The notes under the pieces: generated by a model
Seen by the model: only the letters and a program-made list of their open reading frames with translations
Told to the model about the DNA's origin: nothing
Database searches by the model: none
From: an uncultured Lachnospiraceae bacterium
Lineage (GTDB): Bacteria; Bacillota; Clostridia; Lachnospirales; Lachnospiraceae
Length of the DNA: 59,064 bases
Direction: 5' to 3'
Assembly: GCA_944384105.1 (NCBI GenBank)
Contig: CALWSC010000012.1
Location: 1 to 59,064 of the forward strand
Shown here: positions 6,808-11,452 of the stretch, piece by piece
Numbering within the stretch: the first letter of the stretch is position 1
Layout of the letters: each line of letters starts with the position of its first letter
Made by a program: the position numbers and the translations under genes

Positions 6808-8778
6808 ATGGCTAAGAAAAGCATGAAATTTACAGTGGCGTCCGCAGTGCTCGCAGGAGCCGGGGCAGCAGCGGTGCTGGCAAAGAAAACAAAGGACAGC
6901 GGCCGTGAAAAGGCGAAAAAATCCGCGCAGAATACCGGCAGCTACCGCAATACGGAGCTGGGGATGCATGAGAAGAACAGCAAGGGTATTTATTACAGCA
7001 AGGGCAATTATGAGGCGTTTGCAAGACCGGAGAAGCCGGAGGGCGTGGAGGAGAAGAATGCCTATATTGTGGGCAGCGGGCTTGCGGCGCTCGCGGCAGC
7101 GTGTTTCCTCGTGAGAGACGCTCAGATGCCGGGCGAAAACATCCATATTTTGGAGGCGATGGATGTGGCGGGAGGCGCCTGCGATGGGATTTTTGATCCG
7201 AACCGCGGCTATGTCATGCGCGGCGGCAGGGAGATGGAGGACCATTTCGAGTGCCTCTGGGATCTGTTCCGCAGCATTCCTTCCCTGGAAAACCCGGGCG
7301 CGTCGGTGCTGGATGAATTCTACTGGCTGAATAAGCATGATCCGAACTATTCGCTCTGCCGTGCGACTGTAAACCGCGGCGAGGATGCGCATACAGATGG
7401 AAAATTTAATCTGAGCCAGAAGGGATGTATGGAGATCATGAAGCTCTTTATGACAAAGGATGAGGATCTCTATGACAAGACAATCGAGGATGTGTTTGAC
7501 GACGAGGTGTTCCAGTCCACGTTTTGGCTGTACTGGAGGACGATGTTCGCGTTCGAGAACTGGCACAGCGCGCTGGAGATGAAGCTGTACTTTCAGAGGT
7601 TTATCCACCATATCGCGGGGCTTCCGGATTTCAGCGCCTTAAAATTTACGAGATATAATCAGTATGAGTCGCTGATCCTTCCGATGCAGAAGTACCTGGA
7701 GGACGCGGGCGTAGATTTTCAGTTTCATACCGAAGTGACCAATGTAGTATTTGAGTTCAAGAACGGCAGAAAGATCGCGTCCGCGATCGAATGCAGCGTG
7801 AATGGTGCGGAGAAGGGTATCCTTCTGACAGAAAATGATCTTGTGTTTGTAACAAACGGAAGCTGCACGGAGGGCACGATTTACGGCGACCAGAATCATG
7901 CGCCGAACGGGGATGCTGAGGTGCGTACAAGCGGCTGCTGGAATCTCTGGAAGAATATCGCGAAGCAGGATTCCTCCTTCGGGCATCCGGAGAAGTTCTG
8001 CTCAGACATCTCGAAGACAAACTGGGAGTCAGCTACAGTCACGACGCTGGACGATAAGATTCTGCCGTATATCACAAATATCTGTAAGAGAGACCCGAGG
8101 AGCGGAAAGGTTGTGACCGGAGGAATTGTAAGCTGCCGTGATTCGAGCTGGCTGATGAGCTGGACTATCAACCGTCAGGGTCAGTTTCAGGAGCAGGATC
8201 CGGAGAAGGTCTGCGTATGGGTATACGGGCTGTTCACAGACGTGCCGGGCGATTTTGTGAAAAAACCGATGAAAGAATGTACGGGCAGAGAGATTACGGA
8301 GGAGTGGCTGTATCATATCGGGGTTCCGGTGGAGCAGATTCCTGAGCTGGCAGAGAGCAGCGCTGTGTGCGTGCCCACGCTGATGCCGTATATTACCGCG
8401 TTTTTCATGCCCAGAACAAAGGGAGACCGTCCGGATGTAATACCGGATGGATGCGTGAATTTCGCGTTTCTGGGACAGTTTGCTGAGACGCCGAGGGATA
8501 CGGTCTTTACCACGGAATACTCGGTTCGAACCGCTATGGAAGCTGTGTACGGGCTGCTGGGAGTAGACCGCGGCGTCCCGGAAGTCTGGGGCAGTGTATA
8601 CGACATCCGCGAACTGCTGGAAAGCTCTGTACGCCTCATGGACGGCAAGTCTCCTCTTGAAATCGAACTTCCAGGACCGTTAAACGTTCTGAAAAAGCCT
8701 CTGCTTAAGGCGGTGAAAGGAACGGTAATTGAAAAGGTGCTTAGGGATCATAATGTAATCAAAGAAGGCATGCTATAA
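6808..8778 (+). CDS. ohyA: Oleate hydratase (myosin-cross-reactive antigen family)
   Basis: A 656-residue FAD-dependent enzyme that adds water to the 9,10 double bond of oleate and related unsaturated fatty acids, giving hydroxy fatty acids and detoxifying them. The family core starts near residue 61 (GIYYSKGNYEAFARP), followed by the dinucleotide-binding loop VGSGLAALAAACF at 88-100, the GGACDG loop and NRGYVMRGGREMEDHFECLW. The first ~60 residues are an extension with a hydrophobic stretch at about 8-25 and a Lys-rich tail, suggesting membrane anchoring. Ribosome site AAGAGGG. It is downstream of a TetR-type regulator and convergent with the retron. Confidence 0.95.
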   Translation: MAKKSMKFTVASAVLAGAGAAAVLAKKTKDSGREKAKKSAQNTGSYRNTELGMHEKNSKGIYYSKGNYEAFARPEKPEGVEEKNAYIVGSGLAALAAACFLVRDAQMPGENIHILEAMDVAGGACDGIFDPNRGYVMRGGREMEDHFECLWDLFRSIPSLENPGASVLDEFYWLNKHDPNYSLCRATVNRGEDAHTDGKFNLSQKGCMEIMKLFMTKDEDLYDKTIEDVFDDEVFQSTFWLYWRTMFAFENWHSALEMKLYFQRFIHHIAGLPDFSALKFTRYNQYESLILPMQKYLEDAGVDFQFHTEVTNVVFEFKNGRKIASAIECSVNGAEKGILLTENDLVFVTNGSCTEGTIYGDQNHAPNGDAEVRTSGCWNLWKNIAKQDSSFGHPEKFCSDISKTNWESATVTTLDDKILPYITNICKRDPRSGKVVTGGIVSCRDSSWLMSWTINRQGQFQEQDPEKVCVWVYGLFTDVPGDFVKKPMKECTGREITEEWLYHIGVPVEQIPELAESSAVCVPTLMPYITAFFMPRTKGDRPDVIPDGCVNFAFLGQFAETPRDTVFTTEYSVRTAMEAVYGLLGVDRGVPEVWGSVYDIRELLESSVRLMDGKSPLEIELPGPLNVLKKPLLKAVKGTVIEKVLRDHNVIKEGML

Positions 8779-8799
8779 AAAATTCACCCGCGCCGGGTG
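8776..8799 (-). terminator. Terminator of the retron (minus strand)
   Basis: A CACCC/GGGTG stem (8785-8789 with 8795-8799) followed on the minus strand by AATTTTTT. It lies just beyond the RT stop and overlaps the end of ohyA, separating the convergent genes. Confidence 0.7.
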
Positions 8800-8803
8800 C
8801 GCT

Positions 8804-9775
8804 TTATGTTCTTCCGGCGGAAAGTTCCTTCAGCATATCGGCGAACTCCCGGTCGTCGGGATCGATCGAGAGCACGTAGCGGACGCGTCCCTCGAAGCTC
8901 TGCAGATATTTCTCAGGCGGCAGGGGAGAGCTCATGTGCCGAAGATGATCTTCCGCACCGTATTTTTTCAGAAAGTACCATTCCTGGCGAAGCTTCCGCC
9001 GATAGGATTTGGAAAGATGCGGGCGGTCATTGACGACAATGCCGGTGACCTCCTGGCGCCGGGAGGAGGAGAAGAAGCCGGTCTTGTCCGGATTCAGCTC
9101 AAAACCGAGGCGCAGCAGAAACCCTTCGGCGGTCGACTTCACTTGGTCCGGGTTGAAATCGCCCGAGAAGGTCAGGTCATCACAGTAGCGGGTGTAGGTG
9201 ATGCTGCGCGCCCCGCACCAGCCGCTCATATAACGGTCAAAGGGAGCCATCACGAGATTGGAGATATACGGTGAGGTGGGAGCTCCCTGGGGAAGGCTGT
9301 CATGAAGGCAGCACAGATGTGCGAGCAGCGTCCGAACGGCGGGAGGAAAAAACTCGCCGGGGAAAGCGAGACTGTAGACGGACAGATAGGTGATACTTCC
9401 GAAGAAATCGCGGATATCCAGCTTCAGAACACAGCGCTTCCCCGTATGCGGCTGTGCATTCTCAAGCAGAGGAATCCCTTTTCTGTAAGCGCGTGCGCAT
9501 GGGGAAACGGGAAGCTGTTCGAGAATCTGCGTCAGAATACGCTTTTGAACAGATTTTAAGAGATGGTCCGGCACATCGAGCGTGCGGTATCCGCCGCTCT
9601 TCTTTGGAATACGAACGCGGCGGTAGTGATCCTCGGCATGGTTGGAGAGCGCATAAAGAAGCGCAGCCTGCTTTCCGCGTGAAGCCGTAAGCTCTCCGGC
9701 AAGATCCAAAGACAACAGAAACTCTGTCTCCTGTTTGCTGCTGCAATACTTCCATAATCCGTTCCGCAAAATCAT
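8804..9775 (-). CDS. Retron reverse transcriptase
   Basis: A 323-residue RT that would copy part of the adjacent msr-msd RNA into branched msDNA. Both retron hallmarks are present: NAxxH as NAQPH at 106-110 and VTG at 243-245 (EVTGIVVND). The palm motifs are LDIRDFF at 119-125, LPQGAPTSP at 161-169 and the catalytic YCDD at 197-200. The length equals a stand-alone retron RT such as Ec86; no effector domain is fused. There is no maturase or endonuclease domain, arguing against a group II intron. GGGAGG precedes the ATG, which lies 25 bp after the a2 repeat. No effector gene adjoins; retrons usually act in phage defence together with one. Confidence 0.93.
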   Translation of the reverse strand: MILRNGLWKYCSSKQETEFLLSLDLAGELTASRGKQAALLYALSNHAEDHYRRVRIPKKSGGYRTLDVPDHLLKSVQKRILTQILEQLPVSPCARAYRKGIPLLENAQPHTGKRCVLKLDIRDFFGSITYLSVYSLAFPGEFFPPAVRTLLAHLCCLHDSLPQGAPTSPYISNLVMAPFDRYMSGWCGARSITYTRYCDDLTFSGDFNPDQVKSTAEGFLLRLGFELNPDKTGFFSSSRRQEVTGIVVNDRPHLSKSYRRKLRQEWYFLKKYGAEDHLRHMSSPLPPEKYLQSFEGRVRYVLSIDPDDREFADMLKELSAGRT

Positions 9776-9800
9776 TCCGCCTCCCTCAGGTAATAATCAG

Positions 9801-10004
9801 GCGCGCAAAAGTACACAAAAAGATGATACCGGAGACAGCGCAGATGTGCAGAACCAGCCGGAAGGCTGGACGCGGGCATGTATATGACCGCCGTACATCG
9901 AAGCTGCCGCAGGGCGGGCGAAGCCGTCCCGCCGGAAAAGAAAACCGGGAAAGCGACTCGCTTCCCCCACAGAAAAACCCTGTGAACGCTGTACCTTTGC
10001 GCGC
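9801..10004 (-). ncRNA. Retron msr-msd RNA
   Basis: A 204-nt RNA on the RT coding strand. a1 (10004-9990, GCGCGCAAAGGTACA) pairs with a2 (9815-9801, TGTACTTTTGCGCGC) over 15 bp with a single G-U. An AGC follows at the a1 edge; G9989 is the candidate branching guanosine. msr hairpins: CACAG/CTGTG with loop GGUUUUU (9984-9968); GGGAAGCG/CGCTTTCCC with one bulge (9966-9947); GGCGGG/CCCGCC (9933-9913). The msd part (about 9910-9816) holds a long stem (CAGC...GATGT with ACATC...GCTG) capped by CCAGCC-TTCC-GGCTGG (9869-9854). Exact msr/msd ends and the branch site are inferred. Confidence 0.88.
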
Positions 10005-10015
10005 ATGTTATTCTC

Positions 10016-10043
10016 AGTGTAGCATATACGGGGGAAAATGCAA
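10016..10043 (-). promoter_or_regulatory. Retron promoter
   Basis: Minus strand: -35 TTGCAT (10043-10038), a 16-bp spacer, -10 TACACT (10021-10016). The predicted start falls within a few bases of the a1 repeat, where a retron transcript should begin. Confidence 0.6.
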
Positions 10044-10065
10044 GGATAAAACGATGAATTCAGCA

Positions 10066-10100
10066 TCAAAAAGGAGGGGTGTCTTTCGACAGCCCTCCTT
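10066..10100 (-). terminator. Terminator of htrA
   Basis: An AAGGAGGG/CCCTCCTT stem with an inner GTC/GAC helix and GAAA loop, followed on the minus strand by TTTTT. It isolates htrA from the retron promoter. Confidence 0.88.
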
Positions 10101-10117
10101 AAATATCTTATCTATGA

Positions 10118-11452
10118 TTAAGCTGCAGCATTGTCTGTATTAGAGCTTCCAAGCGTAATGTCAAGCGTCTGCTCCGAGTAGGTTCCGTTATCCGGAACCT
10201 GGACGGTGATCGTGACTTTCTCACCGGATGAATAATACTGAAGCGTATCTTTTAGCTGCTCTGTTGTGGTCACAGAATTTCCGTCAAATTTGGTGATCAC
10301 ATAGCCCTGTCTGATACCTGCCTGCTCTGCAGCGCCGCCTTTGTTGACTTCCGCAACGTAGACACCCTCCGGGATGCCGTAGGCACTGCTCAGCGCGCTG
10401 GAGACATCTCTGCACTGAATGTCAAGTGTTCCCCGGTTGTCCTCGGAGACTTTGGAGCGGGTAGTCTGGTTCATCAGGCGCTCGATGATGTCGCTGGCCC
10501 TTGATACAGGAATCGCATAGCCCATACCTTCAACCTCTGTGGAGGCGAGCTTTGCGGAGTTGATGCCGATGACCTCACCGTTCATGTTCAGCAGCGCGCC
10601 GCCGCTGTTGCCCGGATTGATGGCTGCATCGGTCTGGATGTATGTGGCATCTGTATCAGCAGAGCTGTCCGAAGCATCACTGAGTGTGCGGTTCGTTGCG
10701 CTGACGATACCGGTTGTCACGGACTGACCGTAGCCGAGTGCGTTTCCGATTGCAACAACCTGTTCGCCGACCTGCAGTTCATCGGAATCGCCGATGGTCG
10801 CGATTGCGATGCTCGATATGGTATCCGAGGAAATGCTGTCCAGAGGAACCGCAATGACAGCAAGGTCATTGTCCGCATCTGTGCCTTTGATCTGTGCCTC
10901 GTAGACCTGATTATCGATAAAGCTTACGGACAGGGTATCCGACCCCTCCACGACATGGTTGTTGGTGACGATCAAAAGTTCTGTGTCGTTTTTACCGATA
11001 ATGATACCGGAACCGCAGCTCTCTGTCTCTTCGGTCTGCGGCTGCTGGAAGCTGTAGCCAAAAGCACTGAAGAGGGACTGAACTTCCTGCACGGATTTAT
11101 TTGTAATCGATACGATGGAAGGCATCGCCGCGGAAGCAATGTCAGATACATCGAGGCTTCCTGCTGCATCCGAGGATCCTCCCGTCGCAGTCGCCTTAAT
11201 CAGATTAGCCTGCTGAGAAGCTGCTGACGTATTCCGGCTGTAGCCAGACAGGTAGTTTACACCCTGGAACGCACCTGCTGCGACGCCTCCGAAGAGCATT
11301 GCACTTAATGTGATCGCTCCTGCTTTCTTCATGAGAGCGGAAGTTTTCTTCGGGAGTCTTCTGCGCGGTTTCCTCTGTTTCGGCATCTCCGGAACCTGAA
11401 AGCTGTTATTTTCGTTATCTGTGTACTCTGTATAATCTCTGAAATCTGACAT
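10118..11452 (-). CDS. htrA: HtrA/DegP-like serine protease with PDZ domain
   Basis: A 444-residue membrane-anchored protease for misfolded extracytoplasmic proteins. The N-terminal ~40 residues are charged and cytoplasmic; one transmembrane segment follows at about 43-65. The trypsin-like domain shows the triad: His166 (TNNHVVEG), Asp196 (NDLAVI) and Ser283 (GNSGGALL). One PDZ domain occupies about 340-440. The start at 11452 (MSDFRDYTEY) has AAAGGAGG eight bases upstream; the frame is open for 58 more codons without such a site. It has its own terminator before the retron, so it is not a retron partner. Confidence 0.95.
   Translation of the reverse strand: MSDFRDYTEYTDNENNSFQVPEMPKQRKPRRRLPKKTSALMKKAGAITLSAMLFGGVAAGAFQGVNYLSGYSRNTSAASQQANLIKATATGGSSDAAGSLDVSDIASAAMPSIVSITNKSVQEVQSLFSAFGYSFQQPQTEETESCGSGIIIGKNDTELLIVTNNHVVEGSDTLSVSFIDNQVYEAQIKGTDADNDLAVIAVPLDSISSDTISSIAIATIGDSDELQVGEQVVAIGNALGYGQSVTTGIVSATNRTLSDASDSSADTDATYIQTDAAINPGNSGGALLNMNGEVIGINSAKLASTEVEGMGYAIPVSRASDIIERLMNQTTRSKVSEDNRGTLDIQCRDVSSALSSAYGIPEGVYVAEVNKGGAAEQAGIRQGYVITKFDGNSVTTTEQLKDTLQYYSSGEKVTITVQVPDNGTYSEQTLDITLGSSNTDNAAA

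Follow-up and report, generated by a model that had tools for sequence, protein, structure and literature searches.

The stretch of DNA analysed here, referred to as the window, is 59,064 nucleotides (nt) long (contig CALWSC010000012.1, assembly GCA_944384105.1, an uncultured Lachnospiraceae bacterium), and between its htrA gene, for a trypsin-like protease with PDZ domain, and its oleate hydratase gene ohyA it carries a reverse transcriptase (RT) gene preceded by a non-coding RNA (ncRNA). We are confident that this pair is a stand-alone retron belonging to the Ec107 (Retron-Eco5) family, predicted to be a unit that makes multicopy single-stranded DNA (msDNA); that confidence covers the family and the unit, not the role. 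RNA and RT occupy the whole htrA–ohyA gap as a two-part unit, leaving 22–26 nt between the a2 arm of the RNA and the RT (by choice of the a2 end) and 25 nt between the RT and the ohyA frame. htrA lies upstream of the retron on the same strand, and ohyA is convergent with the RT.

The RT gene, which a first-pass annotation of this DNA had recognised by its NAQPH, YCDD and VTG motifs, was confirmed as an open frame on the minus strand with all motifs present (NAxxH of region X, YxDD, VTG; Table 1). The best PADLOC model for the protein was RT_Ec107-like (436.1 bits, residues 15–318), followed by RT_III-A (317.1 bits), and a Pfam scan of the 323-residue RT found no domain besides RVT_1. An AlphaFold2 model (17 sequences; mean predicted local distance difference test score 90.0, predicted template modelling score 0.82) was searched against the PDB, and rows 1–17 were all retron RTs, ahead of any group II intron RT; the RT is predicted to have a retron-type fold. 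Among solved structures, Ec86 (Eco1) ranked first in sequence as well as in fold, with 26% identity in the fold alignment. The ratios of nonsynonymous to synonymous divergence against the two congeners were 0.067/0.547 (~0.12) and 0.133/1.364 (~0.10), and the gene is under purifying selection. Elsewhere in the same genome there are three more RVT_1 matches, at G000:C85 (two places) and G000:C107, two of them with an internal stop.

The same annotation had placed a 204-nt RNA with a 15-bp a1/a2 inverted pair upstream of the RT, and both were recovered. The arms pair over 15 bp, including one G-U, and the enclosed length is exactly 204 nt. When positions 9776–10075 (300 nt) were dinucleotide-shuffled 500 times, one shuffle gave an inverted repeat of this strength, and the RNA fold (–95 kcal/mol, z = –4.99) was equalled in none of 200 shuffles. 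The terminator proposed after the RT was also found, by a terminator scan, as a hairpin with a T run.

Table 1. Coordinates of the retron and its flanking signals in the window
Feature	Positions	Strand	Basis or remark
Hairpin terminator between RT and convergent ohyA	8777–8799 (hairpin 8785–8799)	T run on minus strand	Terminator scan
Retron RT open reading frame, 323 aa	8804–9775	–	NAQPH, YCDD, VTG motifs; profile, identity to the E. coli RT, predicted fold
msr-msd ncRNA, 204 nt, bounded by 15-bp a1/a2	9801–10004	–	Inverted repeat, fold, covariation, covariance model R1
a2 arm TGTACTTTTGCGCGC	9801–9815	–	Complementary to a1
Predicted msd template, ~95 nt cDNA	9816–9913	–	Borders inferred
Additional msr hairpin (GGCGGGACGGC..GCCCGCC)	9913–9933	–	Present in locus L082 too; shorter in L009
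msr hairpin, core GCGAGTCGC	9948–9967	–	Alignment and covariation
Predicted branching G just 3' of a1	9989	–	G in 23/23 hand-bordered loci including the window; role from known retrons
a1 arm GCGCGCAAAGGTACA	9990–10004	–	Complementary to a2
Promoter-like elements (TTGCAT ... TATGCTACACT)	10016–10043	–	–10-like hexamer survey; generic scan silent
Terminator-like hairpin after htrA, setting htrA apart from the retron	10068–10100	–	Read from sequence

Conservation of the RNA was assessed in 23 loci including the window, in which the a1/a2 borders were set by hand, picked by complementarity. In all 23, A is the last base of a1 and G the base after it, and a2 is likewise preceded by a G. Alignment A2 comprised 21 of these RNAs (L063 and L014 left out), with a structure derived from a single relative and its pairs then tallied across the rows. 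Standard pairs made up 86.7% of the pairs versus 68.4% in shuffles, and 37 of 45 pairs had changed on both sides versus 24.7. Covariation was 0.499 versus 0.183 in shuffles, which disregard the kinship of the rows, and at most 0.138 when the partner was slid by 1–3 columns, a control that retains it. The RNA structure is kept by compensatory change. Together with the purifying selection on the RT, this lends indirect support to the earlier statement that the retron is functional. The missing effector gene would fit a decayed remnant; against an open frame with all motifs, purifying selection and an intact covarying RNA, such a reading is scarcely credible.

Covariance model R1, trained on rows from Bacillota or the window's own family (L015 is a record without rank), finds the family. 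Its single match in the window's own genome is at 9802–10003. At E ≤ 0.01 it matched 18 of 397 family genomes, and an RT adjoined the match in 18/18; in the phylum sample (E 1e-4) it matched 5 of 398 genomes, the window's own and four others, each of which has an RT (41–47% identity). Thirty-four other loci, mostly with distant or awkward RTs, were divided between 15 that match at E up to 1, among them L027 of the training set, and 19 that do not. The covariance search suggested in the first-pass annotation was blank with Rfam and positive with R1, in the own genome and in RT-linked relatives. One more partial match (L101, E 0.001) has no RT beside it, and a distant blastn search for phage records carrying the ncRNA found none.

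We compared the window retron with the one at the slmA–pyrE site of Escherichia coli. Ec107 is located between pyrE and ttk (slmA). PMC6868368 describes Ec107 as an intergenic element that takes the place of a 34-bp palindromic stretch and has YCDD, and reports that its expression rises under phosphate starvation and at stationary-phase entry. A search with the K-12 slmA–pyrE region matched 5374 E. coli genomes, and in 5001 of them 80% or more of the site was covered at a single location; among the remaining matches listed (five rows), query positions 333–631 (four) or 1–298 (one) were covered, with 34 bp missing between the halves. Two of these loci were read fully, and 'reverse transcriptase family protein' is the sole annotated gene between slmA and pyrE. 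The encoded RT is 49% identical to the window RT over 299 aligned columns and scores 437.4 bits on RT_Ec107-like, and R1 matches upstream of both copies at full length (positions 1–201, E 2.2e-18 and 3.7e-19). Judged from these comparisons, the window and E. coli retrons are homologous in protein and RNA. We assign the window retron to the Ec107 family because of the RT model fit, the RT identity, the R1 match and the 34-bp gap at slmA–pyrE.

Both retrons consist of RNA and RT alone, share NAQPH and YCDD and the plan of the ncRNA, and lie between a tandem and a convergent gene (pyrE and slmA in E. coli, htrA and ohyA in the window). Their hosts belong to different phyla and they occupy different genomic sites; the msd loops, the a1/a2 sequence and the msr hairpins that lie between the GCGAGTCGC hairpin and the msd also differ. 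The earlier remark that this retron is not a described example is true of this copy, which adds a member to an already known family; what is surprising is that the family lacks an effector, rather than anything about the copy itself. Type III-A, whose model RT_III-A was next best for the window RT, is exemplified by the St85-family RT of a Vagococcus plasmid, which scores best on RT_III-A (408.8 bits), falls on a separate branch and has a phosphoribosyltransferase gene nearby, whereas the window retron has none. Ec86 is likewise different, in that PMC8989520 gives its accessory protein as a predicted nucleoside deoxyribosyltransferase with a DNA-binding domain.

Placement of the RT by phylogeny, also proposed earlier, put the window RT apart from the St85-family branch. 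The first tree contained 50 rows (L008, L012, L026, L032, L035, L036, L038 and L081 left out) and the second 39, after 11 more long-branched or near-duplicate rows were left out. In the 50-row tree the window and its congeners form a starred clade (100/100), and a different branch (93/93, not starred) holds the St85-family plasmid RT together with a Tritonibacter RT. The E. coli pair falls among Lachnospiraceae RTs in this tree, and within the Clostridia group in both trees, with weak support. Descent of Ec107 from the Clostridia group, as this nesting might suggest, was considered and set aside, the alternative not being rejected: a grouping of the 23 near rows without the E. coli pair gave p = 0.18 in the approximately unbiased test.

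We asked whether an effector accompanies the retron. At the locus there is neither a dedicated effector gene nor an effector domain fused to the RT, one of which a tripartite defence system would have. The neighbour set comprised 81 of 85 listed open reading frames (ORFs) of at least 110 aa from 22 loci, called as simple longest frames (two ORFs of L014 and one each of L081 and L064 were dropped, and one border in L013 was reset). No PADLOC family was matched by more than two of these 81 proteins; this concerns neighbours, and no genome-wide search for trans partners was made. Clustering over 39 loci (L008, L012 and L032 left out beforehand; L026 without a called RT frame) gave no recurrent neighbour, the largest cluster spanning five loci. 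Ten scanned neighbour proteins include DAHP synthase, EF-G, adenylosuccinate synthetase (twice), a Mg-chelatase-type ATPase and a DHDPS family enzyme. One exception in layout is L013, from an Eisenbergiella metagenome-assembled genome, in which an ORF for a DUF2268-like HExxH Zn-protease (7135–7989; 22.4 bits on DUF2268, below the cut-off of 23.6) lies between the RNA (6883–7105) and the RT. L012 has the same spacing (the ORF was read in L013 only), and the near relative L016 has no protease gene. As a general effector the Zn-protease was rejected, with three homologues in 397 family genomes and none among the 24 RT-positive ones. The earlier annotation's word 'complete' holds for RNA and RT in a two-component unit that has no effector, and its proposal of phage defence was not supported, the effector typical of defence retrons being absent and there being no room for one beside the retron.

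According to PMC12548924, retrons typically comprise a toxic effector; a 2022 review (PMC8867640) says that some seem to have no clear effector neighbours. The former, and the maintenance of the RT, would fit a tripartite defence retron of the classical kind, with an effector gene in trans at some other place in the genome. The lack of a recurrent neighbour argues against this as far as neighbours go, as does the E. coli copy with its single annotated RT between slmA and pyrE, and we regard a trans effector as unlikely. Far less probable is that htrA itself is the effector, as in the RT-protease type XI retrons: it lies upstream on the same strand, and the htrA of L009 matches RT-Protease_XI models (E 6e-13), over only the protease end of these models, but a terminator-like hairpin separates htrA from the retron, an htrA relative lies within five ORFs in only three of 39 loci, all of this genus, and the E. 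coli copy adjoins pyrE. In the literature, we found no description of the window copy and no function for the Ec107 family; most subscription papers lay outside this search, which makes it weak evidence of absence.

Several observations weigh against the assignment to a solitary Ec107-family unit with a conserved RNA. A search of Rfam 15 with 8700–10200 (E up to 5) matched no family to the window RNA. The closest NCBIfam model for the RT is St85 RT, at 220.7 against a cut-off of 235 and hence below it. Covariation of a1/a2 in relatives, another check that had been proposed, is present in A2, though this helix (helix 1) is not independent evidence, its borders having been chosen by complementarity; this does not apply to helices 2–5, among them the GCGAGTCGC hairpin and the msd stem, which have 24 of 31 pairs changed on both sides and were first drawn from one relative and counted afterwards. 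Six of the 24 RT-positive family genomes (G077, G132, G266, G283, G299, G348) had no R1 match in the family search. Their RTs are more distant (33–46% identity), and the second RT of G282 likewise had no match; in a smaller search at the level of loci, L076 (G077) and L077 (G283) do match, and L058/L080, L060, L061 and L057/L079 do not where searched. The label Ec107 for the E. coli locus rests on the 34-bp gap and the position between pyrE and slmA. Constraint on the RT is about that on htrA (ratios ~0.09 and ~0.07) and weaker than on ohyA (0.03) or the gntR gene. Lastly, single neighbours match PADLOC defence models strongly, PDC-M10B (6.6e-65), ShosA (3.9e-58), PDC-M37B (7.8e-34), PsyrA (2.4e-31) and DolB (8.5e-26), each in 1 of 81 proteins; such models also catch housekeeping relatives.

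The distribution of the retron bears on whether it is a passenger. The RT is present in 3/3 genomes of the genus, the window's included, and, at E 1e-40, in 24 of the 397 genomes sampled from the family; 33 loci came from named records. The htrA side is common to all three genus genomes. The ohyA side is common to the window and G002, and the contig of G001 ends there, with its ohyA on another contig. An empty htrA–ohyA site was not found: none of 28 ohyA loci outside the genus, drawn from 46 ohyA-bearing genomes, had htrA or the RT within flanks of up to 1.5 kb. A tetR-like gene adjoins ohyA in many relatives, with htrA and the retron absent beside it in the 28 loci. In the genus of G048 (two genomes) both have the RT and the neighbouring gene, so no empty site is seen there either. 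The patchy occurrence of the RT in the family, neighbours that differ in most genera and the clean 34-bp replacement in E. coli would suit a passenger or slowly mobile element of no benefit to the host, inserted in gene gaps. However, the retron is beside htrA in all three genus genomes, and the E. coli unit is found in 373 of 5426 genomes, always as one chromosomal copy. No sign of jumping is seen in E. coli, because there is one copy each and 373 equals the number of genomes without an intact site (5374 – 5001; totals were compared, and lists were not matched genome by genome). A mere passenger is, in our judgement, improbable.

Some individual loci deserve mention. In L081/L059 (G206:C26) the RT match is split over two frames near residue 124, possibly a broken copy or an assembly error, and the ncRNA matches R1 in full. 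In L067 (G180:C5) the RNA (157997–158190) and the RT, whose match starts at 158443, are about 240 nt apart, and this spacer contains an inverted repeat that is long but imperfect. L069, L070 and L071 have the retron near two common neighbour genes (DAHP synthase adjoining in L069); in L070 and L071 it lies on the opposite side of these two genes from its place in L069. In L139, a Staphylococcus carnosus plasmid, an Ec67-family retron RT and an oleate hydratase gene are close together on either side of a recombinase gene, probably by coincidence.

The promoter is the weakest of the retron parts. A generic sigma-70 scan reported nothing at the place where a promoter had been proposed. The best –10 candidates, TACACT (10016–10021) and TATGCT (10021–10026), each have 4/6 matches. 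Hexamers with at least 4/6 matches lie 23–38 nt ahead of the branch G, at variable spacing, in 21 of the 23 loci including the window (L015 and L017 reach 3/6), and the mean best match was 4.61 versus 3.43 in mononucleotide shuffles. TATGCTACACT is identical in both congeners. The recurrent hexamer and this identity speak for the earlier promoter call, the silent scan against it.

Retron RTs start cDNA synthesis at the G that follows a1, and the msd is copied from a point immediately ahead of a2. By analogy with known retrons, the window RNA would be transcribed from ~10008, a1 and a2 would pair, and the RT would bind the msr hairpins, prime at the 2'-OH of G9989 and copy from ~9816 towards ~9911. 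The product would be an msDNA of ~95 nt that stays attached to the msr and bound by the RT. Its cellular role may, with much less certainty, be independent of any gene in cis: RT–msDNA could act alone or with a host protein, as a sensor or regulator that is perhaps stress-induced, or an effector might be encoded elsewhere. A bolder reading, which we consider less likely than not, is that Ec107-family retrons are a true two-component class, in which RNA, RT and msDNA would work alone or with a core host protein, with no toxin, and which is maintained in gut Clostridia and E. coli.

The prevailing view of retrons today is that they defend against phage by guarding a toxin. Ec107 is a long-known E. 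coli retron without an explained function, and the window retron is a very compact, intact-looking member of the same family. A family that has no toxin next to it, resembles itself in both RNA and protein across two phyla and is often found among housekeeping genes offers a natural test for another job of msDNA. If the two-component class is real, msDNA would be a regulator or sensor and not an antitoxin.

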